This document shows, in pieces, positions 28,229-43,825 of a DNA stretch of 64,000 nt. Within the stretch, counting starts at the first letter, position 1, and each line of letters starts with the position of its first letter. The translations under genes were made by a program, and so were the position numbers. Source of the DNA: Nitrospirales bacterium (GTDB taxonomy: Bacteria; Nitrospirota; Nitrospiria; Nitrospirales; UBA8639); assembly GCA_031315865.1 (NCBI GenBank), contig JALDRJ010000002.1, positions 124,001-188,000 of the forward strand, written 5' to 3'. Under the pieces are notes generated by a model. It saw nothing but the letters and a program-made list of their open reading frames with translations, did no database searches and was not told the DNA's origin.

Positions 28229-28831
28229 ATGGATAGCGCCACCATCTTTCTGATTCTGATGTGCTTGGCATTCGCCGCTCTGACCTTTTGGGTCGTCAAC
28301 TCATACAATCAGCTCATCGCGTATCGCAATCGCTTCAGGAACGCCTTTGCCCAGATCGATGTGCAACTCACGCGACGGTACGACCTTATCCCTAATCTCG
28401 TGGAAACCGCCAAGGCCTACATGAAGCATGAGCGTGAAACGCTGGAAGCCGTCATTCATGCAAGGAATCAAGCCTCTCAAGCCACCAAGCAAGCCTCGGC
28501 CAATCCCGAAGATACCAAAGCGATTCAGGGCTTAATCAGTGCAGAAGGCCTGTTGACCGGCACGATGAGCCGTCTCTTTGCCGTCATGGAGAATTATCCT
28601 GACCTCAAAGCCGACAAGCATATGCGACAGGTCAGTGAAGAACTGACGTCTACTGAAAATCGAGTGGCGTTTGCCCGCCAAGCCTACAACGACGCGGTCA
28701 TGATCTATAACACGCAACGCGAAACCTTCCCGGTCAATCTCGTGGCCGGCGGATTTCATTTTAAGCCGGCGCAACTGCTCGAAATCGAAGAAGTTCAAAA
28801 ACGTCAGGTTCCACAAGTCGCTTTTGCATGA
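28229..28831 (+). CDS. lemA: LemA-family membrane protein
   Basis: A 200-residue protein with one N-terminal transmembrane helix (residues 6-24) and a long helical bundle typical of LemA: VNSYNQLIAYRNRFRNAFAQ, QLTRRYDLIPNLVETAKAYM, ENRVAFARQAYNDAVMIYN and NTQRETFPVNLVA. LemA proteins are often paired with M48/HtpX proteases, as here. Their precise role is not settled. GGAGAGG precedes the ATG. The stop is 8 bases before the start of the protease gene, so the two are one operon. Confidence 0.93.
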   Translation: MDSATIFLILMCLAFAALTFWVVNSYNQLIAYRNRFRNAFAQIDVQLTRRYDLIPNLVETAKAYMKHERETLEAVIHARNQASQATKQASANPEDTKAIQGLISAEGLLTGTMSRLFAVMENYPDLKADKHMRQVSEELTSTENRVAFARQAYNDAVMIYNTQRETFPVNLVAGGFHFKPAQLLEIEEVQKRQVPQVAFA

Positions 28832-28838
28832 GCGCGCC

Positions 28839-30941
28839 ATGGATTTTTTTGGACATCAAGATCAGGCTCGACGCAAGACCCGATGGCTTCAAAGTCTGTT
28901 CGCGCTCGCCGTCACGGTGACGATTGTCGGCATCTATTGGACTATCTTGGGAACGATGTCGTGGATTGAGTGGAGGTCCGCGCTTGAGACTGATCCCTCG
29001 CTGCCCTTCTCCTGGGACTTTTTCTGGCGCTGGGATCTTACGCTGTTCAGCCTCGTCGGCCTGTTCTGCCTGATCGTGATCGCCTTGGGGTGCGCCATTA
29101 AATTCATGGAACTGCACGCTGGCGGCGCGTGGGCCGCCGAACTTCTCGGCGGGAAACGCCTTGATCCCTCCAGCCCCTCCGACGCCGCGCGCATACTCAT
29201 CAACGTCGTGGAAGAAATGGCCTTAGCCTCGGGAATGGCTCCACCACCAGTTTACGTTCTCGAGCAAGAGAAGGGGATCAACGCGTTCGCGGCTGGCTAC
29301 ACGGCGGATGATGCGGTCATTGGCGTCACTCGCGGCGCGATGACGCAGCTCACTCGCGATGAACTTCAAGGAGTGATCGGCCATGAATTCAGCCATATTC
29401 TCCATGGAGACATGCGATTGAATTTAGAAATGATTGGATTGCTGTACGGATTACAAGGGCTGGGAGCATTAGGCCGGACGATGCTCAACTGGTCTCTCAA
29501 TTATAGCGCTCATACGAGCAACTTTTTCACCCCCGTACATGGATTGAGTATTGTCTTGAGTCTTCTCGTCGGGGGCGCGCTGCGGGTGGTGGGATCTATC
29601 GGGGTGGTCTTGGCCAGCATGGTCAAAGCTGCCGTATCCCGTCAACGAGAGTTCCTGGCCGACGCCTCAGCCATCCAGTTTACCAGAAATCCTGAAGGAC
29701 TCGGCAACGCATTGAAGAAGATCGGGAACGTGAAGGAAGGCTCCATTGTCCATCATCCGGAAGCGCCTCAAATCAGTCATATGTTTTTCTCTCATGGCCT
29801 GTTGTCCGGACTTGAAACCCTGTTTGCGACCCATCCACCGTTAATCACACGCATACGGCGTATCGATCCGACATTTTCCGTCCAACCACCATCGAGTCAT
29901 TCAACGCAAACTTCTCATTCATCGAGGGCGACCGATAGAGGAATATCTTTCGCCTCGGCATCAAGCGCTGGAACGAATTCGTACCCGGCATACCAGCAGC
30001 CCACTCCAGACTCGATTGTGGATCAGATCGGCGCTTCGCATCCTCGCCATGTGAACTATATCCACACGCTCCTTTCGAGAGTCCCGCCGGTCATTCTCGA
30101 AGCCGTTCATGAGCCATTCGGAGCGCGAGCCGTGATATATGCCTTACTGCTGTCTTCCGATGCGCAGACAAGAGCCATTCAAGTCAGCCGATTAGCGTCG
30201 CATGCCGACCACGTCGTCTATCAAGAAACGCTCAAACTCGAGCCAGTCATGCAAAACCTCGAGCTTGCCGCCCGTCTTCCCCTCATTGATCTGGTCATAC
30301 CCACATTGAAGCTCCTGTCCGAGCCACAATACTCCCAGTTTAAAGCGAACGTGAGAAACATCATTCCACAAAAGAATCAGGGCGCTCTCTTCGGCTGGAC
30401 CTTACGGCGAGTCATGTTGCGACATCTCGACCCTCATTTCTATCCAGCCGCGCCATTTACTCTGCCGTGCCATTCGCTGAAACGGATAGCTCATCACTGT
30501 GGCGATTTGCTATCCGCCCTTGCCCATTACGGAAAGGGAAACAACGACGACGTCATGCGCGCTTTTCGCGCTGGCAAACAAGAACTCAAGATGCCTTCGC
30601 TTACGCTCGCTCCGGCCAGTCAGTGCACATTAGCTTCGCTAGACCTGACTCTCTACGCCTTGGCCCGGACGACACCAGAGGTTAAGCGAACCATCATCAA
30701 AGCTTGCACGGCCTGTATCTTGGCGGATCGTCATGTGACCCTTGAAGAAGGCGAATTGCTTCGCGCCGTCGCCGATTCGTTGGGGTGTCCCATGCCTCCC
30801 GTGTTTGCCGCGCTTCCACAACGTCTACCCAGCGATGTAAAAAATGCGGCATCTTCTTCGCCTGATGTCCCAAAATCGCCCGCACGAACAACCCACGGAG
30901 CCTCTCATGATCACACGCGTCACCATGCCAAAATTCACTAA
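28839..30941 (+). CDS. HtpX-like M48 membrane metalloprotease with C-terminal TerB-like domain
   Basis: A 700-residue protein. Two transmembrane helices lie at about 18-45 and 65-92. The M48 protease domain has GVIGHEFSHILHGDMRLN (HEFSH at 182-186, zinc ligands) and the third ligand in QREFLADASAIQF. Two more hydrophobic segments lie between them. Residues about 335-400 are a low-complexity linker. The C-terminal 300 residues are soluble, and about 590-670 reads like a TerB-type helical domain (CTACILADRHVTLEEGELLR). HtpX proper is about 290 residues, so this is the long form found with LemA. It degrades damaged membrane proteins by family role. ATG 28839 is chosen over a TTG at 28824. Confidence 0.9.
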   Translation: MDFFGHQDQARRKTRWLQSLFALAVTVTIVGIYWTILGTMSWIEWRSALETDPSLPFSWDFFWRWDLTLFSLVGLFCLIVIALGCAIKFMELHAGGAWAAELLGGKRLDPSSPSDAARILINVVEEMALASGMAPPPVYVLEQEKGINAFAAGYTADDAVIGVTRGAMTQLTRDELQGVIGHEFSHILHGDMRLNLEMIGLLYGLQGLGALGRTMLNWSLNYSAHTSNFFTPVHGLSIVLSLLVGGALRVVGSIGVVLASMVKAAVSRQREFLADASAIQFTRNPEGLGNALKKIGNVKEGSIVHHPEAPQISHMFFSHGLLSGLETLFATHPPLITRIRRIDPTFSVQPPSSHSTQTSHSSRATDRGISFASASSAGTNSYPAYQQPTPDSIVDQIGASHPRHVNYIHTLLSRVPPVILEAVHEPFGARAVIYALLLSSDAQTRAIQVSRLASHADHVVYQETLKLEPVMQNLELAARLPLIDLVIPTLKLLSEPQYSQFKANVRNIIPQKNQGALFGWTLRRVMLRHLDPHFYPAAPFTLPCHSLKRIAHHCGDLLSALAHYGKGNNDDVMRAFRAGKQELKMPSLTLAPASQCTLASLDLTLYALARTTPEVKRTIIKACTACILADRHVTLEEGELLRAVADSLGCPMPPVFAALPQRLPSDVKNAASSSPDVPKSPARTTHGASHDHTRHHAKIH

Positions 30942-31998
30942 ACACATGACCCATGGGTCCATCCTTGTGTGGAAAATGGAGGAAGGCGAAGCCGTGACAG
31001 AGGGGGATATCATCGCCGACGTCGAGACCGACACCGCCATCATGGAATTAGAGGCGCATGGATCAGGATTTCTCCGTCATATTCTCATCCAGGAAGGACA
31101 CTCGGTAAAGACTGACACCATGCTGGCGATCATCGGAGATTTAGACGATGACACGGAGTCTATCGTACAAGAAGCGCTGAAGATTCAAGATAAAACCGGC
31201 GTGTTTCAGACACCGTCAAAGTCAACGGGTCGACCCACGAGCCGCCATCGTCCTCAAACAGAAGAACTCACCACAATTCCCCATGCCCACGCAGCGAGTG
31301 ACTCGGAATCAGCAGTTCCGTCTCATGCGCTGAATGAAAGAAAACAGGAATCGAGTACGACTCGGTCCTCTGCTCTTAACGATGACGACATACCCCGTTT
31401 TCACCTGACGACGGATGTGAGCATGGCCGAAGGCGAACGACTTCGTGAACAAATGATAGACATTCAGCACATGCCACTGAGCTTGACGACACTCTATGTT
31501 CGAGCGGCCGCACTCGCGTTCTCCCGTCTGCCAACTTGCCTTGAGATCTTCTCAAGTCGAGGGCATTCTCTAGACATTGGCATCGGCATCATTGTGGACG
31601 ATCGAGTCCTCACACCAACACTTCACGACTGTGGGCGAAAAAATATCGCTGAACTTTCCCGTGAAATCCAAGTTATGACAAAGCAAACACGAGTTGATCC
31701 GCGCTTTTGTGAAAAGGAATCAGGCGCCCGTTTCTCGATACTCCACCTCGGCATGTACCCCATCGAACGCTGCGTCCCGATTCTGACCCCACCCCAAACA
31801 GCTGCCCTTTCAATCGGCGCCATTCGAGATGTCCGGCTGGAAAAAGATGGAACCGTTACGGTGGATCGTCGCGCAACGGTCACGCTGACCTGTCAACAAC
31901 CAGGCTTCGATGAAAAGCAAGGCTCTCAATTGTTAGACACATTGAAGCAATTGCTTGAGCGCCCACTAGCAATTTTCCTTCCAAACCCAGTAGAGTAG
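30907..31998 (+). CDS. E2-like (dihydrolipoamide acyltransferase) protein lacking lipoyl lysine and catalytic histidine
   Basis: A 363-residue protein laid out like an E2 of 2-oxoacid dehydrogenases. A lipoyl-type domain spans residues 1-80 (MPKFTKHMTHGSILVWKMEE, GDIIADVETDTAIMELEA). The canonical ETDKA is ETDTA, so the lipoylated Lys is Thr43. A polar linker (about 95-180) has no recognisable E1/E3-binding domain. The acyltransferase-like core (185-363) keeps ILTPPQTAALSIGAIRDVRL but replaces the DHRVIDG active-site motif with QQPGFDE, removing the catalytic His while keeping the Asp. It overlaps the protease gene by 35 bases; GGAG lies seven bases before the ATG. It is probably a pseudoenzyme. 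No E1 or E3 genes are in the window. Confidence 0.85.
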   Translation: MITRVTMPKFTKHMTHGSILVWKMEEGEAVTEGDIIADVETDTAIMELEAHGSGFLRHILIQEGHSVKTDTMLAIIGDLDDDTESIVQEALKIQDKTGVFQTPSKSTGRPTSRHRPQTEELTTIPHAHAASDSESAVPSHALNERKQESSTTRSSALNDDDIPRFHLTTDVSMAEGERLREQMIDIQHMPLSLTTLYVRAAALAFSRLPTCLEIFSSRGHSLDIGIGIIVDDRVLTPTLHDCGRKNIAELSREIQVMTKQTRVDPRFCEKESGARFSILHLGMYPIERCVPILTPPQTAALSIGAIRDVRLEKDGTVTVDRRATVTLTCQQPGFDEKQGSQLLDTLKQLLERPLAIFLPNPVE

Positions 31999-32092: not shown

Positions 32093-32995
32093 ATGACGTT
32101 TGTACCCATCACGCAAGTCCAAACGATCAAGAAGCCTGGCCCGCGGCCACGTCTGCCGGAATGGTTCAAGGTGAAGTTGAAACAAGGCCCCGATTATCGG
32201 GATATCCGAACAATCATCGATGAACGCGGTCTTCACACCATCTGCGAAGAAGCACGGTGTCCGAATATGTGGGAATGCTGGAACAATCGTACGGCCACAT
32301 TTCTCATTTTGGGAGACATATGCACACGACGATGTCATTATTGTTCTGTCGAGACAGGAAGACCCACCGGCCTCGACCACGAAGAACCGCGTCGCGTCGC
32401 GGAAGCCGTTGAAGCCATGAGACTGCGCCACGCCGTGATTACTTCGGTCAATCGTGATGAATTACCGGACGGCGGGGCATCGATCTTTGCCGAGACGATA
32501 CGGCAAATCCGTGAAAGACTTCCGACGTGCGGCATTGAAGTCCTGATACCAGACTTTCAGGGTAATGAAGAGGCATTAGCAACCGTTCTTGCCGAACGCC
32601 CTGATATCCTTAATCATAATATTGAAACGGTTCCTCGTTTGTTTCCGTCTGTCCGCCCTCAGGGCAAATACCAACGTTCGCTCGACCTGCTCAAACACGC
32701 GAAGGCATCGGGGGCGACCACCAAATCCGGACTTATCGCTGGCTTAGGCGAAACGACCAACGAGGTTCGCGAAGTCATGCACGATCTCCATGAAGTGTCT
32801 TGCGATATCCTGACCGTCGGGCAGTATCTCCAGCCCACCAAAGACCACATGCCCGTGGCCCGATTCTACTCCCCACAAGAATTTGAGATGTTAAAAGAAG
32901 AAGCTCTCACGCTCGGCTTCAAACATGTTGAATCCGGCCCGCTCGTCCGAAGTTCGTATCATGCGGAAAAGCAGACAGCAGGAGCACATATGTAG
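32093..32995 (+). CDS. lipA: Lipoyl synthase (radical SAM)
   Basis: A 300-residue enzyme that inserts two sulfurs into protein-bound octanoyl groups. Both iron-sulfur sites are present: the auxiliary cluster motif CEEARCPNMWEC (Cx4Cx5C) and the radical-SAM motif CTRRCHYC (Cx3Cx2C). SAM-binding segments include VITSVNRDELPDGGA and KSGLIAGLGET, and VGQYLQPTKDH closes the domain. It follows the E2-like gene by 94 bases in the same direction. Its substrate proteins cannot include the neighbouring E2-like protein if Thr43 is correct, so it must serve lipoyl proteins elsewhere (such as glycine cleavage H protein or a true E2). Confidence 0.96.
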   Translation: MTFVPITQVQTIKKPGPRPRLPEWFKVKLKQGPDYRDIRTIIDERGLHTICEEARCPNMWECWNNRTATFLILGDICTRRCHYCSVETGRPTGLDHEEPRRVAEAVEAMRLRHAVITSVNRDELPDGGASIFAETIRQIRERLPTCGIEVLIPDFQGNEEALATVLAERPDILNHNIETVPRLFPSVRPQGKYQRSLDLLKHAKASGATTKSGLIAGLGETTNEVREVMHDLHEVSCDILTVGQYLQPTKDHMPVARFYSPQEFEMLKEEALTLGFKHVESGPLVRSSYHAEKQTAGAHM

Positions 32996-33125: not shown

Positions 33126-34100
33126 TTACATTCCTTTCTCACCCATACTCAATGCGATCGCGTAGATCCCGAATTGCGGCACCCAATGACTGTATTGTTT
33201 ATAGTCGTCCCGCCAGAATTCCGTTTTCTCCATATGCGTGACGACATGATCCATGTAGAGATCCCGATACGCTGCATCCCCAGTGGTTGTAAAAAGGGTC
33301 CAATAGGCCCAGGCTCGACTGAAGTTCAACCCTGCTGAATGGGGTTTTGGAGCAATCACATTGGGCTTCAGCCGCAAAATATCGGAAGAAAAAGAATGCA
33401 GCCAAGCCCTCGCCTCGTCAGACGGCAGAACAGACAGTATCGTTCTCGTGCGTTGAAGCGATGCCCCGAAAAACTCATCAATGTGCTCATCATAGGATGC
33501 CGGAAAATGCCGGTCGAGCGGGATGAATCGTTCTCTCGTCAACGTCATCAATCTTTTCTGCAACGCGGTATTCTCTTGCCAGCAACTCCATTCCCACAGG
33601 TTCAACACGGCCCAGGACACATTGCCGTACTCCCGGCGCGATGCATAATGAAGAATGTCGTCATCGGATAACGAAAAAACCCAGTGTTCTAACCGCGTGG
33701 CAATTTCCGTAGCGAGCACGTGTACATCCGAATGTCGTCCCCATCGTTCGCGCTCTTGGGCCAGCTTCAAAAACCAGGCATATCCATATGGCAACTCATG
33801 ATCCAATTCACCACATTGTAAACAGGTCAATTCTTCGGCCAATCGCTCCGATCGCAAGACCGCCTCTGCCGCATCAAACCATGGTGTATGGCCCGTCAAC
33901 CGGGAAGCCACGAGCAATGCATAGGTCCCGTGGACGCTGGAATGCCAGTCGATGCACCCACAAAATGCCGGATGGCGCGTATCTGTTCTCGTGACGCCCC
34001 GTTCGACCACCGTGGCCAGTGACGTGAGATAGTCTTTCCGCATCCCGCAGAACTCCTGCCAACATGTCAGGGGATGGCTACATCTCTTTTCGTTACTCAT
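33126..34100 (-). CDS. DUF2891-family protein
   Basis: A 324-residue cytosolic protein that fits DUF2891 in length and motifs: HPAFCGCIDWHSSVHGTYAL near residue 45, LPYGYAWFLKLAQE, and FSRAWAYWTLFT plus SHWVPQFGIYAIALS at the end. The helical pattern with conserved Trp/His resembles alpha/alpha-barrel enzymes acting on sugars, but no activity is established. AAGGATCT precedes the ATG. It is convergent with lipA and appears monocistronic. Confidence 0.75.
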   Translation of the reverse strand: MSNEKRCSHPLTCWQEFCGMRKDYLTSLATVVERGVTRTDTRHPAFCGCIDWHSSVHGTYALLVASRLTGHTPWFDAAEAVLRSERLAEELTCLQCGELDHELPYGYAWFLKLAQERERWGRHSDVHVLATEIATRLEHWVFSLSDDDILHYASRREYGNVSWAVLNLWEWSCWQENTALQKRLMTLTRERFIPLDRHFPASYDEHIDEFFGASLQRTRTILSVLPSDEARAWLHSFSSDILRLKPNVIAPKPHSAGLNFSRAWAYWTLFTTTGDAAYRDLYMDHVVTHMEKTEFWRDDYKQYSHWVPQFGIYAIALSMGEKGM

Positions 34101-34258
34101 AGATCCTTACCCATTTCAATGCATCGATTCTCCTGAACCGATTCGTTAAATCTTTACGACTCATTTTTCCCATATAGAGCAACAGAGCTCAAGGCAATTT
34201 TACGTCCTCGTCCGGCGAATCTCCAAAAGTGGTCCGTACTATTCGTCCTCTAAGCCAT

Positions 34259-34306
34259 GAGATGACAACCATACCCTGGCTCAGCCACACAGTCGACGAT
34301 TCGTGT
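34259..34306. repeat. 48-base interspersed repeat, copy 2
   Basis: It matches 5947-5994 at 45 of 48 positions. On the minus strand it ends a 63-codon reading frame whose last residues are TRIVDCVAEPGYGCHLMA. The parent element is not recognised. Confidence 0.7.
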
Positions 34307-34784
34307 CTGCTGGTCGGTGGCGGATCCCTTCAGTAACAGTGAAGTAATCGTGTGAGTGATGATCGTGTCTGCTAAAACCTGGCTGAGGTCATGTGAGGCA
34401 GAGCGAATCCCAATACGTGCCAATCGATATAGACGACACACCCCGTACGGTCCGTACGTTGAACCAGACGGAAGTTATTGGAAACGGCTATCACGAACAG
34501 ACCTGAAATTGGTTAGCGGATTAGCAGCTTGCGACAAGACTTTAAGTTCGATGTTCAGTACTGTATATTTTGCTTCTTTCTTATCGGCATCGGACTACTT
34601 AAATGCTGAAACAACGTGTCTTGGTCCCTTTTCTACATTGGCTACCGGAATATCGGACATCGAGTCAAAGGAACATCGATTGGCTTGGGTAAAGCGAAGA
34701 GGTCCGACATCCCACATTCCATAAACTTCGGGGATCGAAAACGAAAAAACAGTCGATTCCATAATTTGCTTATGCCGGTCGAAC

Positions 34785-34808
34785 TCACCAGGCTTTCAAA
34801 CCTGGTGA
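34785..34808. repeat. Perfect hairpin TCACCAGG-N8-CCTGGTGA
   Basis: An 8-base stem with an 8-base loop, about 120 bases upstream of the gene at 34928. It could be a leader-RNA element, an operator or part of a mobile-element end. No T-tract follows. Confidence 0.5.
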
Positions 34809-34927
34809 TGGGTGTGCGTTCAAACAGTCTGAGGCCTTGAGGCTTATCCTGGGAAGTGTATTGATTCCGATTGTTAGAGCGGAACATCCCCTTATTATTA
34901 ATAATCCTATAATGAATGGAGGAACAA

Positions 34928-36004
34928 GTGAAGAAATCAGCACAGTTCAGGCGGAGTTGCAAACCGGGGGCAATCGGATCGAAAGCATTAGGTCCGTTAG
35001 GATTACTCCCTGGAAAGTGGGAGGGGAAAGGAACTGGATGGAATATGATCGCCCTTCCATTTGACGGGGCACGCTTCAAATTCCGAATTCTTATGAATCA
35101 ATACGATGAAGAATTGGTATTCACGACAGTCAGTGACAATGTTGAAAACCGGGGATTAAAAGGTGTTCTCGACTCCAGCAACAACCCGCCTGGGAGCCCG
35201 GACGATGACCAATTTGTGGTTGCACTGGATTACCAGCAATCTATCACGCAAGGGAAAGCAGAGGATAATCCAGACAGTGGCGGTCTTGCCGGCGTGATCG
35301 GAAAACCGATCCATCATGAACCCGGTCTCTGGCTCTACATGAAAAACCTGAGGGCCATCGACAAAGATATAACGGATACGCCTGACGGAGGGATTAAAAT
35401 GGCTGATGCAGTCATCGAGGTTGCTCGGCTGGCTGCCGTCCCCCACGGGAATTCAGTGCTGGCCCTCGGCACCGCAACTACCGAGAAGGGAATGCCGGAC
35501 ATCCCGCCTGTGAGTGGTCTACCAATTGGACAATTCCAGGATTTATCTACACCTGACTCCAACTTCTTGACCGATCCGTATCTGGCTCCTTACAAGCACT
35601 ACATTGATAATCCATTCATGGGCGATGTTCAGGGTATTCCGGGATATCCGGGATTCAATCCGAAGGACATGCATGAAATTCTCCGGTTTGCCAATCAGAG
35701 CATTGACATAAAGCGCACGACGGTTTTGACTGTTGACACCACTCGCCAAAACGCTGGCATCGTCAACGCGCCTTTCGTGACAAAGCAGGCTGAGCCGGCA
35801 AGTATGAAGTCGACTTTTTGGATTCAAGAGTTGAAGGAAAAAGACCAATATGGGCGTCCGAAACTTCGGTTGCAGTACTCCCAAGTGGTGATGTTGGATT
35901 TTTTCCGGCCACGAGAGGACGGGCATCCTGATCGAGCGCGATGGCCGCACATTAGCATCAATACACTCGAAAAAGTGGCAGATTCAGCCGAATATGCTGA
36001 CTGA
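34928..36004 (+). CDS. Hypothetical protein with a nitrobindin/lipocalin-like N-terminal signature
   Basis: A 358-residue soluble protein. The GTG at 34928 is chosen because GGAGG lies five bases upstream; the ATG at 34916 lies before that site. The N-terminal LGPLGLLPGKWEGKGTGWNM resembles the first strand of nitrobindin-like heme/fatty-acid barrels (pattern LxxLxGxWxGxG). The rest, including HHEPGLWLYMKNL, GIPGYPGFNPKDMHEILRFA and FWIQELKE, also reads as barrel strands with loops. No heme-ligand His can be assigned with certainty and there is no signal peptide. The neighbours give no clue to function. Confidence 0.6.
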   Translation: MKKSAQFRRSCKPGAIGSKALGPLGLLPGKWEGKGTGWNMIALPFDGARFKFRILMNQYDEELVFTTVSDNVENRGLKGVLDSSNNPPGSPDDDQFVVALDYQQSITQGKAEDNPDSGGLAGVIGKPIHHEPGLWLYMKNLRAIDKDITDTPDGGIKMADAVIEVARLAAVPHGNSVLALGTATTEKGMPDIPPVSGLPIGQFQDLSTPDSNFLTDPYLAPYKHYIDNPFMGDVQGIPGYPGFNPKDMHEILRFANQSIDIKRTTVLTVDTTRQNAGIVNAPFVTKQAEPASMKSTFWIQELKEKDQYGRPKLRLQYSQVVMLDFFRPREDGHPDRARWPHISINTLEKVADSAEYAD

Positions 36005-36218
36005 TTATGAAGAGCCAAAGTCAGGATAATTTCGCCTTTCACTGATAGGAGGGGCTCACCGATACGGCTACAGGCGATCATAATACCGCTGATACGGTGT
36101 TATGATTGTCTGTGGTCATTCTCGATATGGAACCGGCAGCGACCGCACCTCACAGGATTCAACACTCCCATAATCTTGAACGTAAAATGGACAATTGGTT
36201 TGTGTTATTCTACGCGGT

Positions 36219-36653
36219 ATGGATCGTAGTGAACAGGTTCAGCGTGGCTTACGGCGGTTGAAACAGGCTATTGCACGGATCGAAGCTGATCTGGATAACA
36301 AAGCTCACCTGCCCCTAGATCCCCCCATTGCCCAAGAAGACCGGAACGTGGTGATTGATCTGATTCGCCTAGCGATTTGGGAGGAAAAGGAACAGGACCG
36401 TCCCCGCCTCACGCCCGATAAAGAAGGCATCGACTGGATGTGGATTTGTGGAAAAAAACTGGAGTATGCGCCGAGAGCGGAAGACGATGAAACGTTTTGG
36501 ATCACCAACGGGCGGCATGAATTCTTAAAAATGAAGTTTCAACACGGCGATTCCGTCGAAGAATTACAACTTACCTTTGCCCAATCAAAGCAGGCGATCA
36601 TCACAGAGTTGATCCGGCAGGGGTTGCTTCCAGACGAAACCTCCCTTCAATAG
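36219..36653 (+). CDS. Small hypothetical protein
   Basis: A 144-residue soluble, acidic protein that I do not recognise. It begins with a helical, charged segment (MDRSEQVQRGLRRLKQAIAR), then shows EGIDWMWICGKKLEYAPRAE and a helical end (AQSKQAIITELIRQGLLPDE). The ATG at 36219 lacks a clear ribosome site; the ORF is open from 36195. Codon use is normal for the window, and the composition is protein-like. Confidence 0.55.
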   Translation: MDRSEQVQRGLRRLKQAIARIEADLDNKAHLPLDPPIAQEDRNVVIDLIRLAIWEEKEQDRPRLTPDKEGIDWMWICGKKLEYAPRAEDDETFWITNGRHEFLKMKFQHGDSVEELQLTFAQSKQAIITELIRQGLLPDETSLQ

Positions 36654-36964
36654 GTGCAGTAGCCTCTCCTTTTGCAAGCGCACGGGGCCCCAGCCATCGA
36701 TACTCCAACCTGGCCTGGCTCGCTACTCCATGTTCTATCACACCACCGGAAGCCGCCATCAGGACTTGAACCGGCAAACATCAGATACGGTCTCTTTGGC
36801 AGAAGGCATGACGCGGCCAAGGAGGTCATGACAGGAAAAAATTTCACTGAGCAAGCTGTTTTAAATTCAGGAAACATTTCTGTGGTGATATCCAGTGTGC
36901 TGTACATATCCATGAAAGAGAGTTAGGCTAATAGAAAAGCGTGAAAGGCAATCCATACGTACAC
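36654..36964. other. Intergenic region before the copper genes
   Basis: About 310 bases. The stretch near 36750-36770 carries GGACTTGAACC, which recalls a tRNA T-arm, but the flanks do not fold into one. An 84-codon ORF here has no ribosome site. It probably contains the promoter of the metal genes downstream. Confidence 0.45.
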
Positions 36965-37336
36965 ATGAATTTACAATTTTCGCCAAAAGTAAAAGGCTGT
37001 GTCCTCCTTATCCTGTTTGCTTTTGTGCTTTGCGGGGCAGGTGGTTTGTACTGCCCCATGCCGGCCTCCGCCACCGACATACATCACTCGCAACCAACAT
37101 CTCACCATTCCACTTCTTTATTAATGACGAGCGACTGCCCTGACCAATTAAGCACATCATCTTCGGAAATTTTTGCAAATGACGATGTGTCTGTAGGCTC
37201 TATTTCTGCGGTCACGGTCTCCGGGTTACACGACATTCCTCGCTTCGGTCTTTTTCATTTTCTAGGTCATGAACGATTACCCTACCCCACGACCTACCCT
37301 CTTCGGCATCTTCTCTTCTCCGTTTTTCTAAATTGA
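36965..37336 (+). CDS. Small exported His/Ser-rich protein upstream of copA
   Basis: A 123-residue protein with one hydrophobic signal-like segment (GCVLLILFAFVLCGAGGLYC) and a mature part with a His cluster (HHSQPTSHHSTS) followed by a single Cys. I do not recognise a family. Small His-rich exported proteins often precede copper oxidase genes and may bind metal, so this is a reasonable but unproven guess. The ORF is open from a GTG at 36941; the ATG at 36965 gives a more usual signal peptide. Confidence 0.5.
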   Translation: MNLQFSPKVKGCVLLILFAFVLCGAGGLYCPMPASATDIHHSQPTSHHSTSLLMTSDCPDQLSTSSSEIFANDDVSVGSISAVTVSGLHDIPRFGLFHFLGHERLPYPTTYPLRHLLFSVFLN

Positions 37337-37508
37337 GCATTCCTCACGACTGAATAGCAAAAGTGTTCAGAATCCATGGGGGTTCTGGGATGAGCTGACT
37401 ATTTTCGTCACCGTTTCATGCTCGGCATGGATGTCAGCAAGAGCGCTCGAGAAAAATAAAACGAGGGTCACACGTCAAGGTTCAAAGCACGTAACAAGGA
37501 ACAGAAAC

Positions 37509-39359
37509 ATGAATAGCCAGCATCACGAGATAACACGGCGTGCGTTGCTAGCACGCATCGGAACGATGGGGCTCGCGGCTGCCCTGACCCCGTTCATCCC
37601 CTCCTACATTTGGGCATGTGCAGCGATCAATAGAGCAACACCCGCCTCACCATTGCGTGGAAATTCCATCGATTTAAGGATTACGGAGACTCCGTTTCGA
37701 ATTGGAGATCAACTTGGCATGGCGAAGACCATCAATGGCACGGTGCCGGGGCCTTTGATCCGCCTGCAGGAAGGGCAAACCGTCACTTTCAACGTCACTA
37801 ACCGATTAGAGGAAGACACGTCGATTCATTGGCATGGATTGATTTTACCGCAAGATATGGACGGCGTGCCTGGCGTGAGCTTTGCCGGCATCAAGCCAGC
37901 CTCGACTTTTTCCTACCGCTACCCGGTTCGACAAAACGGCACCTACTGGTACCACAGCCACTCCGGAGGGCAGGAGCAGTCAGGGGTCTATGGACCGCTG
38001 ATTATCGATCCGATCGAGCCGGAACCATTCCAGTATACCCGTGAATACGTAGTGGTGCTCTCGGATTGGACATTCGAGTCACCGGAAGTGCTCTTCGCAA
38101 ATCTCAAAAAAGTACCTGATTACTATAACTTTCAGAAGCGCGCCACTCGCGAATTTCTTACTGACATGAGGCGACAGGGGTTGTGGTCCACACTGCAGAA
38201 TTATTTGATGTGGGACAGGATGCGGATGGACCCGACGGACTTCGCCGACGTCAGCGGTTATGCGTATACCTATTTGATGAACGGCTTGTCGCCCGAAATG
38301 AATTGGACTGGGCGTTTTTGTCCAGGCGACAGGGTCCGTTTGCGCATCATTAACGCGGGGGCAATGACGTTCTTCGATGTACGCTTGCCCGGCCTCAGCA
38401 TGACCGTCATCCAGGCAGATGGACAAAACGTGCAGCCCGTTGTGGTGGACGAATTTCGCATCGGTCCGGCGGAAACCTACGACGTCATCGTCAATCCTAC
38501 CGAAAATCGGGCCTATACTCTTTTTGCTGAGACGATGGATCGAAGCGGATACGCCCGCGGCACGTTGGCTCCGCGCGCCGGCATGCGTGCGCCACTTCCT
38601 GAACGTCGATCGAGGCCACTCCGGACGATGGATGACATGGGTATGGCCGGTATGGACATGGAAAATATGGACGAGACTTCTCATGCGAGCCACGCCCACT
38701 TGCCCCATCAAGCCATGGGCATGATCGAGACCCCGGAAACACGACACGCGCACGACATGAACAGGCTGTCAGATATGCCGATAGATGATCCATCTCATTC
38801 AACGATTCCCGGCGTTAAACCGGTCAAGCATGGCCCCGACCATCACGGGACGGGCAATCAAGCTGTGGCGGAGCATTCTCAGAATCGTAGTGGCGAGCCT
38901 GGGAGAGGACTCGGCAACAGTGACCGGCGCGTGTTGGTCTATACCGATTTAAAGAGCCTTGTACCCCACCCCGACCAACGGAAGCCTGAGCGTGAGATCG
39001 AGCTCCACCTCACCGGCCACATGGAGCGCTATATGTGGTCATTCGACGGGAAAAAGTTTTCGGAAGCCAAAGAGCCCATTCAGTTTCGGTTTGGTGAACG
39101 TCTTCGCTTAACCTTCGTGAATGACACGATGATGGAACATCCCCTGCATCTGCACGGCATGTGGATGCACCTCGAGAATGGCACGGGGGTCTACCTGCCT
39201 CGGAAGCACACGGTGATCGTCAAGCCGGCAGAGCGACTCTCTGTTGCCATCACCGCTGATGCGCCGGGGCGTTGGGCATTTCACTGCCATCTGCTCTTTC
39301 ATATGAAGGCAGGAATGTTTCGAGTCATCGAGGTCACTGACCAAAAGAGCCAGATGTGA
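37509..39359 (+). CDS. copA: Tat-exported multicopper oxidase, copper-resistance protein CopA
   Basis: A 616-residue periplasmic oxidase that converts Cu(I) to Cu(II). The twin-arginine signal is TRRALLARIGTMGLAAALTP. The copper ligands are in HWHGLILPQDMDG, WYHSHSGGQ, HPLHLHGMWM and HCHLLFHMKAGMF, covering type 1, 2 and 3 sites. A Met/His-rich insert (about residues 375-415, GMAGMDMENMDETSHASHAH) probably gathers copper, as in CopA of Pseudomonas. The ATG at 37509 has AAGGA nine bases upstream and starts at the signal; the ORF is open from 37431. It overlaps the copB frame by a few bases at most, so they form an operon. Confidence 0.95.
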   Translation: MNSQHHEITRRALLARIGTMGLAAALTPFIPSYIWACAAINRATPASPLRGNSIDLRITETPFRIGDQLGMAKTINGTVPGPLIRLQEGQTVTFNVTNRLEEDTSIHWHGLILPQDMDGVPGVSFAGIKPASTFSYRYPVRQNGTYWYHSHSGGQEQSGVYGPLIIDPIEPEPFQYTREYVVVLSDWTFESPEVLFANLKKVPDYYNFQKRATREFLTDMRRQGLWSTLQNYLMWDRMRMDPTDFADVSGYAYTYLMNGLSPEMNWTGRFCPGDRVRLRIINAGAMTFFDVRLPGLSMTVIQADGQNVQPVVVDEFRIGPAETYDVIVNPTENRAYTLFAETMDRSGYARGTLAPRAGMRAPLPERRSRPLRTMDDMGMAGMDMENMDETSHASHAHLPHQAMGMIETPETRHAHDMNRLSDMPIDDPSHSTIPGVKPVKHGPDHHGTGNQAVAEHSQNRSGEPGRGLGNSDRRVLVYTDLKSLVPHPDQRKPEREIELHLTGHMERYMWSFDGKKFSEAKEPIQFRFGERLRLTFVNDTMMEHPLHLHGMWMHLENGTGVYLPRKHTVIVKPAERLSVAITADAPGRWAFHCHLLFHMKAGMFRVIEVTDQKSQM

Positions 39360-39361
39360 TC

Positions 39362-40270
39362 ATGAACGCCTCCGTTCGAACCGTTCTTTTATTAACGGTA
39401 GTCGGTTTCCTGGGCATGGGGTTCGACGCGGTCAGCGCATTCGCCAAGACGACCTTCCCCCCATCAACTCCTTCAAGTACGTCCACTCGCTCAACTCCTC
39501 AAAAAATTGTAGAGATGTACCAGCTGGCTCCGTTAAGTGCATCAACAGAAAAGAGGGACGGCCTGCCAAACGTCGCCCCCCAGACTGACTGGCCCAGTCC
39601 TGTGGAGGATGAGAAGAAACATATCTTTATTCTCGCTGACGTCCTTGAATATCGTCCAAACATGGGCGGGTCAGAGAGTGGAAACGATTACAGGTGGGAT
39701 ATCGAAGGCTGGTATGGAGGGGACTATAACCGCCTCTGGTTTAAAACTGAAGGACAACAGAACAGTGCTTTTAAAGCCGACTACGATGCAGATTCCCAGT
39801 TGCTCTACGGACGTTTTTTTCAACAGTATTACGATTTTCAGGTCGGCGGTCGTCTTGAAACGCAATCCTATCGTGATCACAATGTGACGCGTGGGCTAGT
39901 CGTCATCGGACTGCAGGGACTGGTGCCTTATAACTATGAAATTGAGTCCGCCCTATTTGTGAGTTGTCTCGGCCATGTGTCCGCTCGTCTGACGACGACC
40001 AAAGACCTGTCCTTGAGTCAACGCCTGATCCTCCAACTACGCCTAGAAACCAACGCGGCCATTCAACGGGTCAAAAAATTCACAACCGGTTCCGGACTCA
40101 ATAACGTGGAAGGGGGCGCACGTCTGCGCTATGAAATCCGGCGTGAATTCGCGCCCTACGTAGGAGTTTCTTTGGATAGAAGTTTTGGCGAAACCGCGAC
40201 CTTCGTCAGGAAAGAGGGCGGAGATTCAAGTCAGATTCGTTTTGTGGTGGGGGTTCGAGTATGGTTCTAA
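39362..40270 (+). CDS. copB: Outer-membrane copper-resistance protein CopB
   Basis: A 302-residue protein with a signal peptide (about residues 1-24) and a mature region typical of CopB: KHIFILADVLEYRPN, GGDYNRLWFKTEGQ and a barrel of alternating strands ending in Phe (VVGVRVWF), the outer-membrane assembly signal. It binds copper at or in the outer membrane and normally works with CopA. The usual Met-rich N-terminal repeats are absent here. The start is the ATG at 39362, two bases after the copA stop; a GTG at 39356 is less likely. Confidence 0.9.
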   Translation: MNASVRTVLLLTVVGFLGMGFDAVSAFAKTTFPPSTPSSTSTRSTPQKIVEMYQLAPLSASTEKRDGLPNVAPQTDWPSPVEDEKKHIFILADVLEYRPNMGGSESGNDYRWDIEGWYGGDYNRLWFKTEGQQNSAFKADYDADSQLLYGRFFQQYYDFQVGGRLETQSYRDHNVTRGLVVIGLQGLVPYNYEIESALFVSCLGHVSARLTTTKDLSLSQRLILQLRLETNAAIQRVKKFTTGSGLNNVEGGARLRYEIRREFAPYVGVSLDRSFGETATFVRKEGGDSSQIRFVVGVRVWF

Positions 40271-40410
40271 ATTGCGCAAACCGTTCGGGATTGTGAATTT
40301 ATCCCACACGCTAATCGGACGGGAAACTACAATACCTTCCAACTTGAGTCGTTATTCGATACCTTACACACCAAAAGTGCGATGGCTAAAGGATGACTTT
40401 CGTCCAAAGT

Positions 40411-42498
40411 CTACTCCGGCCAAAACCAAGTCAGCCCCCCCATGAACATTCGAGGTGTTCCCGGAACAAAGTGAATATCGGACACGCCACCGGCGGGTTC
40501 TCCAGAAAGACGGGAAGCATAGAAAAACTGCGCCTGACGCCAATCGGTATCGGTTAAATTGCGAATGCTGAAAAAGGCCTCCAAACGTCCTGCTGGTGGC
40601 CTAACGGGTATTTTGTAACGAAGAATCAGGTCGAAAATCGTAAAGGGTTCCAGTTTCACGCTGTCATCTTCCGTGCCGGCCCGACTTCCCACGGTCAACA
40701 TTTGTAATGTCCCGGAGAGTCCCATTGGAAGGCGGGCTGTCACCATTGAAAAGGCCGTGAATTCCGGAGCTAAAGGAACGGAATCGCCGGTTTTTCTGAA
40801 CTCGGCATGAGTATACGTGATGTCTGCTCGAAGAGTGAGCCATTCCAGCGGAGTGAGGCGAGCGCTGAATTCCATGCCCAGGCGGCGGGTCTTTCCACGT
40901 CTTTCCGTCGTGCCCTCATCCCCCACGAACACCAGTTCGGACTCCAGATCCAACAGCCAAAATGTAGCCAAAATTTCCGACCAGTCCCACGGATGGCTCT
41001 TGATGCCGACTTCATACCCAACAGCTCTCGGCAAGGTGTTGGCTGATGAATTTTCCACGACATCCCGTGCATCATTGCTGTGAAACCCCGTGCCAACATT
41101 CAAGAAGAATTCGGTCTGGTCCCAGGGGCCAAAAATCAGGTTGGCCTTTCCGCTGGTGATGGCATCGGAAGCGAACCCATTCGGCCTGACCGAACAGGCA
41201 GCGCCACAACGATCCTTCACATGATACGTGAACACATCGACCCGTCCGCCTCCGACAAATCGCAGCCAGGGGAAAAACTGTAGGTCCAACCTGAGATATG
41301 GAGAATAGGAGGATTCAAAAATGTCTGATTCCTGCGTGATGGCTAAAGACGAGCGTTTGTGTTGCGTGCCCAGACGGACCCGAATGTTATCGAACCGGGT
41401 CTGAAGTCCGGCCGTCATGGCGCCCTCAGAACCGAAGAATCGAAAAATCTGACGATAGCCGATATCCCCTCCAGTCAGCCAACGGTGATCCGTCTGTTCA
41501 ATGCCGTCACTGTTCACCGGATCATTGAGGTAGAACGTAAAATTAGTGAACAAAGAGAGATAATAATATTGAGCCCACAGACGGGCGAAAACAGTCCCAC
41601 CACCGGGAAGATCGGCAGAGTAATCTAAGCGACCGGTCGTTCGGATCGACTGTCCGCCTTCACTAGGGTCAAGGGACCCAAAACGGTCCAATCTCCCTGA
41701 AGTCACCTCTCGCAAAGGAATTTGGCCTGATCCATTCCATCGTCCATAATATTGGGTCAGGGTCACACTGAGTTGAGAGGATTCAGAAGGGTCTACAGTG
41801 AATTTAGCCAACCCGTTATAGCGGGTATTGCGATTGACAAAGTCATACGGGCCATCGGTGTAATAGAATTCCCCGGCCAACAGCGTGCGGAATTTTTCGT
41901 GAAAGGGAGAGGTGATGAACAGATGCCGTTGCGTGTTGAAACTTCCGCCTGCCGATTGCACGATCGTGTGAGGCACCCAGTCACGCGTGACGTAATTGGC
42001 GGCGCCCGCCGTGGCAAAGTCGCCATATTCCACATGATAGGGTCCTTTTTTAACGACGATTTCCTCGATAGTTTCCGGGATAATGAAATTGATGTCCCCG
42101 TATCCTTGTCCGTGCGCGTGGCTGCGCATATTAATGGGCATCCCATCTACATGAATGGCCAGGTCAGTGCCATGATCAGCATCAAATCCTCTCAGCAGAT
42201 ATTGGTCTGATTTTCCAGCGCCGCCGGAATGTTCCAAGGTGATAAGGCCGGGAGCCAACCGGAGCAAATCCGCTGGACGGCCTTGAGGTTGGAGCAGAAT
42301 GTCTTCATTCAGGATAATTCGATTGGACGAGGCCGCCACAGGCCGTTCTCCAACGACCAGGACCTCCTCCAAAACGGTGATGTCTTCTTGATCGTTTCCG
42401 AATGCAGGCTGTGTCCACAACTGACCGAAGAAGACAAAGAACACAATAGCCGGAATCCACACCGCTCGATGAAAGAAGACAGGATAGGGATACGTCAT
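40411..42498 (-). CDS. TonB-dependent outer-membrane receptor
   Basis: A 695-residue receptor with a signal peptide (ending WTQPAFG), a TonB-box-like stretch (ITVLEEVLVVGER), a plug domain (PADLLRLAPGLITLEHSGGA, YLLRGFDADHGTDLAIHVDG, VVKKGPYHVEYG) and a 22-strand-type barrel with a C-terminal Trp-Phe ending. The His-rich plug loop (MRSHAHGQGYGD) could contact a metal or metallophore. It lies between copB and a NikR-type regulator, so nickel or another divalent metal is a plausible cargo. The start is placed at 42498; upstream ORF space to 42603 contains an operator-like inverted repeat, so it is probably leader. Confidence 0.92.
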   Translation of the reverse strand: MTYPYPVFFHRAVWIPAIVFFVFFGQLWTQPAFGNDQEDITVLEEVLVVGERPVAASSNRIILNEDILLQPQGRPADLLRLAPGLITLEHSGGAGKSDQYLLRGFDADHGTDLAIHVDGMPINMRSHAHGQGYGDINFIIPETIEEIVVKKGPYHVEYGDFATAGAANYVTRDWVPHTIVQSAGGSFNTQRHLFITSPFHEKFRTLLAGEFYYTDGPYDFVNRNTRYNGLAKFTVDPSESSQLSVTLTQYYGRWNGSGQIPLREVTSGRLDRFGSLDPSEGGQSIRTTGRLDYSADLPGGGTVFARLWAQYYYLSLFTNFTFYLNDPVNSDGIEQTDHRWLTGGDIGYRQIFRFFGSEGAMTAGLQTRFDNIRVRLGTQHKRSSLAITQESDIFESSYSPYLRLDLQFFPWLRFVGGGRVDVFTYHVKDRCGAACSVRPNGFASDAITSGKANLIFGPWDQTEFFLNVGTGFHSNDARDVVENSSANTLPRAVGYEVGIKSHPWDWSEILATFWLLDLESELVFVGDEGTTERRGKTRRLGMEFSARLTPLEWLTLRADITYTHAEFRKTGDSVPLAPEFTAFSMVTARLPMGLSGTLQMLTVGSRAGTEDDSVKLEPFTIFDLILRYKIPVRPPAGRLEAFFSIRNLTDTDWRQAQFFYASRLSGEPAGGVSDIHFVPGTPRMFMGGLTWFWPE

Positions 42499-42548
42499 TA
42501 GGTGGAAGAGCGCGGAACAAACGAGAGGCACATAAATTCGACCGGTAG

Positions 42549-42567
42549 CACAAAATAAAAATTTGTG
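42549..42567. promoter_or_regulatory. Inverted repeat CACAAA-N7-TTTGTG, candidate operator of the TonB receptor
   Basis: A 6+6 inverted repeat in AT-rich DNA, about 51 bases before the receptor start and 150 bases downstream of the NikR-type gene. It does not match the E. coli NikR operator, so assignment to NikR rests on position only. Confidence 0.35.
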
Positions 42568-42718
42568 GCACTCCTTATACCAAGGCCCGCAAAATAACGT
42601 CAATCGAATTTATGGGTAATAGGAAATGGAACGATGCGAGAGAGGAAATTCAGCACCTGTCTTTCAGGCGAAAGGACCAGGAGTGCGAGGATCCCTTACG
42701 AAGGCTAAGATAAGGTGG

Positions 42719-43135
42719 CTATTTGAGGGATTTTCCGGTAGTCGTCATGGTGAGCTGTCCATGCTTCACCCCTCTGGTTTTAATCAGTAAATTTGCCAGA
42801 TCAACCAAGGCGGCACTACGTCCTTTGACCACAATGACTTCCAGGCAATGATCATGATCCAAATGCACATGAAGATTGGAAATAATGAACCGCCCGTATT
42901 CATGCTGATGATGTGTCAATTGTTGAAGCACATCCGCCTGGTGATGGTCATACACGAGTGTGATGGTGCCAACCGTTTCGTTGTTTCCTCCCCATTCTTC
43001 TCCCACCAGTTGATTGCGGATGAGGTCTCGAATCGCTTCAGAACGGTTCTGATACTTCTTCCGTTTAATGTGACGATCAAAGGCGGCCAGAAGCTTTTTT
43101 TCGAGGGAAACACCAAAACGGATTAGTTGGCTCAT
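42719..43135 (-). CDS. nikR: NikR-type nickel-responsive transcriptional regulator
   Basis: A 138-residue protein with an N-terminal ribbon-helix-helix (QLIRFGVSLEKKLLAAFDRH, NRSEAIRDLIR) and a C-terminal ACT-like metal domain. The nickel ligands are all present with NikR spacing: H78, H89, H91 and C97 (HVHLDHDHC). NikR binds Ni(II) and represses uptake genes. The ORF is open to 43180, but the ATG at 43135 starts directly at the DNA-binding strand. It is followed by the TonB receptor on the same strand, its most likely target, and preceded by the Spy-like gene. Confidence 0.93.
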   Translation of the reverse strand: MSQLIRFGVSLEKKLLAAFDRHIKRKKYQNRSEAIRDLIRNQLVGEEWGGNNETVGTITLVYDHHQADVLQQLTHHQHEYGRFIISNLHVHLDHDHCLEVIVVKGRSAALVDLANLLIKTRGVKHGQLTMTTTGKSLK

Positions 43136-43219
43136 CGTCGCGGAAAAACACTGATCAAACGTGTGATTCAGACACACCACTCCTCTTGTGATAGGAGGAT
43201 GCGCCCGGAGATATTCAGA

Positions 43220-43825
43220 TCAATGGCCTTTTTTAAGATCCTTACCATGGCTATAGCCCTCGGAATGACCTTGCCCATATCCGTGCTTGCCCATGGAACC
43301 ATGTCCCTTCATATCCGCCATGCCATGCATGCCACCCGACCCAAGGCTCATCTGTTTTTTCAATCGGTCACGAAACTGTTGATATTGATCGGGAGTCAAA
43401 ATCTCTTTGAGCTTCAGCAACGTATCGACCCGGTACAGCATGAATTGCTTTTGCAAGCCTCCGATTTCATCAACCTTTTTGGCAATCGCGGCTCGATCGG
43501 TTTCCTTTTGGTCCAGTAACGTACCCAAATCGATCATCGCAACACGGAGATCGGCTCCATTCTTGATCATTGTCTTGCGATACCCTGTTTCTACCGGAGC
43601 CAGGGCTTTTATTTGATCCTCCGTTAACCCGAGTTCCCGTTGCATTCCCAGAGGCGATAACGAACCATGATGCTTCATGCCGCCATGTCCTGATCCTTGA
43701 TGCCGCTCCATCATCCCGGAATGGCGATGTCCCTCGTCTCCGAACACGAGACCTCCTGACAGACATACCATCGTCAACAGTACCAAGAGTGTCGTACCCT
43801 GTCGTGCCCAAATCTGCCCCATCAT
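43220..43825 (-). CDS. Spy/CpxP/ZraP-like periplasmic metal-stress protein
   Basis: A 201-residue exported protein. The signal peptide spans about residues 1-30. The mature region starts with a His/Gly/Met-rich stretch (HRHSGMMERHQGSGHGGMKH), has the helical LTxxQ-type core (LGLTEDQIKALAP, LKEILTPDQYQQFRDRLKKQ) and ends in a second His-rich tail. The core matches the heavy-metal-resistance/Spy family: periplasmic chaperones or zinc/copper sensors. GGAGG lies before the ATG. It is on the same strand as nikR and the TonB receptor, 85 bases before nikR. Confidence 0.88.
   Translation of the reverse strand: MMGQIWARQGTTLLVLLTMVCLSGGLVFGDEGHRHSGMMERHQGSGHGGMKHHGSLSPLGMQRELGLTEDQIKALAPVETGYRKTMIKNGADLRVAMIDLGTLLDQKETDRAAIAKKVDEIGGLQKQFMLYRVDTLLKLKEILTPDQYQQFRDRLKKQMSLGSGGMHGMADMKGHGSMGKHGYGQGHSEGYSHGKDLKKGH

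Follow-up and report, generated by a model that had tools for sequence, protein, structure and literature searches.

What an E2-like acyltransferase can still do once it has lost both the lysine that carries lipoate and its catalytic histidine, and how it came to lie between a membrane protease gene and lipA, are the questions raised by this locus of a Nitrospirales bacterium. The window, which is the whole stretch of 64,000 nucleotides that was analysed, comes from a genome of 3.78 Mb in two contigs, which belongs to a Nitrospirales family and has NPIRA01 (G002) and NPIRA02 (G003) among its genus mates. In a working E2, a lysine holds lipoate, His and Ser residues carry out acyl transfer, and the subunit-binding domain docks E1 and E3, while the N-terminal arm of the catalytic domain normally clasps a neighbouring subunit. 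The fate of each of these parts in the protein examined here, P0001, is described below, and the features of the locus are listed in Table 1.

Table 1. Features of the P0001 locus, in window coordinates.
Feature	Position	Strand	Basis
LemA-family protein, part of the older block	28229..28831	+	Pfam, comparison with relatives
M48/HtpX-like membrane protease with long C-terminal extension	28839..30941	+	ORF list, Pfam, comparison with relatives
P0001, degenerate pyruvate-dehydrogenase E2 homologue, pdhC-derived	30907..31998	+	363-aa ORF, Pfam, alignment, tree
Lipoyl domain, residues 1-80	30907..31146	+	complete beta-barrel predicted; family consensus matched at 46/80 residues
Codon ACC = Thr43 in ETDTA, replacing the lipoyl-accepting lysine (K43T)	31033..31035	+	alignment with E2s
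Linker, residues 81-160	31147..31386	+	predicted disordered at 100-158
E2 catalytic (CAT-like) domain fold, residues 161-363	31387..31995	+	Pfam, AlphaFold2, fold search
Leu279-His280 (LHLG), replacing the active-site Ser-Asn of the SNLG motif	31741..31746	+	alignment with E2s
QQPGFDE, residues 330-336, replacing DHRxLDG	31894..31914	+	alignment with E2s
lipA, lipoyl synthase	32093..32995	+	adjoins M48 without intervening E2 in sister genomes
Segment replacing pdhABC and the metallo-beta-lactamase-like gene of sister genomes	34100..43220	.	locus comparison

P0001 belongs to the E2 superfamily by descent, as seen from the homology of its lipoyl and catalytic domains, its placement in an E2 tree and a fold search. 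Its Pfam scores are 55 bits for Biotin_lipoyl (PF00364, residues 4-76) and 93 bits for 2-oxoacid_dh (PF00198, residues 160-357), compared with 64 bits for the lipoyl, 251 bits for the catalytic and 46 bits for the E3_binding domain in the E2 of a sister species. The Pfam search finds no E3_binding (PF02817) match in P0001 and the subunit-binding motif is also absent in alignment, in agreement with the first-pass annotation, which had reported the peripheral-subunit-binding domain as missing; in the linker region it is missing or unrecognisable, as is the catalytic domain's N-terminal arm. The same annotation described a well-started reading frame, and indeed the ATG start has GGAG about six bases upstream.

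Alignment to true E2s, the comparison that the first-pass annotation suggested, confirms its two central observations, Thr43 in place of the lipoyl lysine and QQPGFDE in place of DHRVIDG. As CQQPGFDE (residues 329-336) lines up with the CDHRxLDG of relatives, the histidine has become Gln331 and the glycine Glu336, while Asp335 of HxxxDG is retained; an alignment with human E2p sets the corresponding motifs opposite the altered ones. An E2-alignment scan of the named genomes returned 76 loci, 70 of them readable, and the lysine and the histidine are present in every readable one. In these 70 E2 homologues, which were collected by patterns that avoid the tested sites, Lys43, Asn280, Asp330, His331, Arg332 and Gly336 are kept without exception. 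Because Lys43 and His331 are so universally kept, the losses at the ETDTA motif and the active site are not due to chance. Sequencing error is ruled out as their cause, since the changes extend along the entire protein, whose reading frame is open. In fact, P0001 differs at 60 of the 111 columns that are invariant in 27 true E2s, whereas any other left-out E2 differs at 0-5, and 57 of 108 aligned, otherwise invariant sites are altered. The earlier description of two independent losses in an otherwise intact protein therefore holds for both losses but not for the rest, given these many changes, the missing N-terminal arm and the retained Asp335. Of the features of a functional PDH E2, P0001 keeps the lipoyl domain fold but lacks the lipoyl lysine, the subunit-binding domain, the HxxxDG and SNLG motifs and the pdhA/pdhB partner genes. 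By the established E2 mechanism, the absence of Lys43 should keep P0001 from being lipoylated in the normal position, that of His331 and Ser279 should rule out E2-type acyl transfer, and that of a subunit-binding domain should prevent E1 or E3 from being recruited by the usual route.

A tree of 31 E2s places P0001 within the E2 clade of its Nitrospirales family, with support of 98/95, or 99/95 once distant outgroups are removed. Its end branch is 4.0-5.3 long, against 0.01-0.8 for the other E2s in the tree, and it shares 36-38% identity with the E2s of NPIRA01 and NPIRA02. The best reading of these data is that P0001 is a lineage-specific descendant of the pdhC of its family. Its exact position within the family is unsettled in the tree, with a p-AU of 0.057 for grouping with the genus E2s and no rejection of grouping with another genus, and some of its residues fit the E2s of other genera better than those of the genus. 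These results can be taken to suggest an ancient paralogue, functional in its own right, that predates the genus and was lost elsewhere, rather than the former pdhC of this genome. However, there is no second copy of a P0001-type E2 in the 49 family genomes at E 1e-20, such a history needs many losses, and long-branch effects could account for the placement, so that we consider it rather improbable. The first-pass annotation looked for support to orthologues that share Thr43 and the missing histidine beside lemA, M48 and lipA, but none was found among the 49 family genomes or the 396 phylum genomes. A scan of the named genomes with P0001 alone as query also gave no match.

Another finding, missed by the first-pass annotation, is that orthologues of pdhA and pdhB are lacking from the genome. 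It contains no E1-beta orthologue but only distant E1s of at most 42% identity, which lie in other clusters described below, and the window has neither pdhA nor pdhB nor the metallo-beta-lactamase-like gene. The gene order in NPIRA02 is LemA, M48, lipA, an oppositely oriented gene, a metallo-beta-lactamase-like gene, pdhA, pdhB and pdhC, and in NPIRA01 a small conserved gene comes after pdhABC, with citrate synthase and sdhA beyond it. In the window, LemA and M48 are followed by P0001, then by lipA and the oppositely oriented gene; a 9-kb stretch of different genes separates these from the small gene, after which come citrate synthase and sdhA. The intact pdhABC of both relatives thus adjoins genes that flank the site in the window. 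P0001 lies about 11 kb from this site, and no remains of pdh turned up in a search of the ancestral position. G001, a further genus mate, has neither an E2 nor an E1 orthologue and shows equal flanks without pdh. The loss of pdhA and pdhB explains how the catalysis of the E2 could be lost. Ferredoxin-dependent 2-oxoacid oxidoreductase families were found in all five genomes compared, which would make PDH loss metabolically plausible; roles of POR and OGOR in Nitrospira have been described (PMC8115632). The segment that replaces pdhABC encodes, by names read from translations, a multicopper oxidase, a TonB-dependent receptor, a NikR-like regulator and others. A 362-aa ORF at 34916-36004 has no Pfam match at E 0.001.

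The claim that P0001 is tightly linked to the LemA-M48 protease operon and to lipoyl synthase is correct as far as this genome goes, where the M48 and P0001 frames overlap by 35 bases and lipA begins 94 bases downstream. However, the arrangement is not conserved. M48 immediately precedes lipA with no E2 between them in G003 and G004, and some relatives have no M48, so a conserved linkage of the E2 to LemA-M48-lipA is rejected. The simplest reading of the M48-lipA adjacency in G003 and G004 is that the E2 entered an existing block. Since M48 and lipA stand together without P0001 in sister species, the linkage says little about function. The overlap makes an M48- or LemA-linked role possible, yet M48 exists without P0001 in relatives. 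That P0001 has been recruited to a new job outside metabolism, for instance as an adaptor of the LemA-M48 protease or as a lipoyl-domain mimic acting on the adjoining lipoylation machinery, seems to us unlikely. As for lipA itself, the genome also encodes GcvH and an LplA/LipB-type enzyme, so lipA has other work and lipoylation of P0001 is not implied. Promoter and terminator scans gave results no better than chance, and the gap between P0001 and lipA shows no notable RNA fold (z -1.67). The M48/HtpX-like protease, which is paired with LemA, has a C-terminal extension of about 350 residues with a weak TerB-like match at its end and is present in only three of the 49 family genomes at E 1e-40.

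The source genome encodes just two members of the E2 catalytic family, and P0001 is its only PDH E2 of this type. The second E2-like protein carries ETSKA, has HQVSEG in place of HxxxDG and ends in a Cys-rich tail (CxxC...CxxC). It is encoded on contig 2 (2314865-2319029) together with an E1 alpha-beta fusion and a phosphopantetheinyl-transferase-like protein in an exopolysaccharide-type cluster, which is an odd place for an E1-E2 pair without evident E3. Its relatives occur in other genus members, including sister species that have no P0001. A second locus on contig 2 (about 2835688-2837816), within a nucleotide-sugar/polysaccharide biosynthesis cluster, encodes a pair of E1 alpha and E1 beta but neither an E2 nor an E3 in the vicinity. 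We rejected this pair, at 2.836 Mb, as a partner of P0001 because of its cluster and because it is also found in G002, which has a normal PDH. It could be argued that P0001 still serves a 2-oxoacid dehydrogenase-type reaction with another E1 or E2, for instance as a structural subunit in a mixed core, in the manner of E3BP, an E2 homologue of no known catalytic function that sits inside E2 cores (PMC8146983). The match of P0001 to the E3BP structure 6h60 and the E1-E2 pair at 2.315-2.318 Mb fit this idea. However, the purpose of E3BP is its E3-binding domain, none of which was detected in P0001, and the other E2 is of a distant type, lies in a polysaccharide-type cluster and has related E2s in sister species without P0001; we regard such a role as very improbable.

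The main rival, which we rank next after a binding or scaffold protein and hold to be a serious though less probable account, is that P0001 is a dying relic, a functionless E2 left after the loss of pdhAB. Its frame would then still be open by chance, because constraint was relaxed recently or incompletely, or because frame breaks would disturb lipA translation. The absence of pdhAB, the very long branch, the alteration of over half of the invariant sites, the lack of any orthologue, the erosion of the linker and the catalytic arm, and the sister species G001 that has no PDH at all are consistent with this account. Several results argue against it. P0001 has no stops and no frameshifts, whereas neutral simulations that reached the same loss of 57/108 invariant sites, taken as the measure of change since the end of catalytic constraint, gained a mean of 7-9 stops, with 0-2 of 1000 runs per setting stop-free. 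The mean BLOSUM62 score of the mismatches is +0.56 in the lipoyl domain, 0.00 in the catalytic domain and -0.60 in the linker, compared with about -0.6 in neutral simulations. The substitutions are therefore conservative in both domains, while the linker changes as if unconstrained. GC content by codon position (0.60/0.43/0.52) resembles that of lipA and neighbouring genes. The nonsynonymous distance to the G003 E2 is 0.48-0.52, and synonymous sites are saturated and give no dS estimate. AlphaFold2 predicts the lipoyl and catalytic domains with pLDDT mostly of 85-98 and a disordered linker between them, although the input alignment consisted of true E2s, which the predicted fold partly mirrors. 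In Foldseek searches with this model, E2 proteins rank first and E2 cores are the best PDB matches. By the pseudogene criteria tested, P0001 does not behave as a pseudogene, with its frame undisrupted and its substitution pattern not neutral. Taken together, the open frame, conservative substitutions and predicted folds favour a kept protein, although, coming from a single genome, they bear only indirectly on selection after the catalytic losses. They support the earlier view of a pseudoenzyme rather than random decay, from which the proposed scaffolding or regulatory role can only be inferred.

We therefore lean towards the explanation that P0001 is a lineage-specific, orphaned, dead E2 that has been kept, at least for a long time, as a non-catalytic binding protein or scaffold. 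It descends from the pdhC of this Nitrospirales family; pdhA and pdhB would have been lost in this lineage, and an E2 copy would have come between M48 and lipA. Released from catalysis, this copy lost the lipoate lysine, its catalytic His and Ser and its E1- and E3-binding parts. It would nevertheless have been retained with an open frame and two foldable domains, and its translation is probably coupled to that of M48. Such a protein could work through an unmodified lipoyl-like domain, a flexible tether and a CAT-fold core. Of these points, the data show the losses, the descent, the lack of pdhAB orthologues, the open frame and the predicted folds; that P0001 is expressed, coupled to M48 and used as a scaffold is inferred. 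Against this explanation stands that P0001 is known from one genome with no orthologue, and the loss of the N-terminal arm weakens any scaffold built on E2 trimers.

Like the bacterial PDH E2s of NPIRA01 and NPIRA02, with which it shares the family E2 clade, P0001 has the domain order lipoyl, linker, catalytic, but it differs from them in lacking the lipoyl lysine, catalytic His and Ser, subunit-binding domain and pdhA/pdhB partners, and in its genomic place. Catalytically dead E2 homologues are already known, as E3BP or protein X (PDHX) of eukaryotic PDH shows (PMC8146983). This protein resembles P0001 as a non-catalytic E2 homologue with lipoyl and CAT-fold domains, and its structure 6h60 is among the PDB sequence and fold matches of P0001. 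However, E3BP binds E3 and works in the E2 core, whereas P0001 has no E3-binding domain, no such partner and no lipoyl lysine. A chloroplast PDH E2 is reported to moonlight as a nucleic-acid binding protein (PMC3570535), which offers a precedent for non-metabolic jobs of an E2, although that protein, unlike P0001, is a working PDH subunit. Our literature searches found no bacterial E2 without both the lysine and the histidine. What appears to be new in P0001, so far in one genome, is that the lipoyl lysine, the subunit-binding domain and the partners are gone as well. P0001 is a clear case of a complex core that has lost its partners, in which catalytic and docking features have gone while fold and frame remain. 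Provided that it is made and kept, P0001 would represent a bacterial E2 pseudoenzyme that has neither lipoate nor a subunit-binding domain nor a partner and is stripped further than the eukaryotic E3BP.
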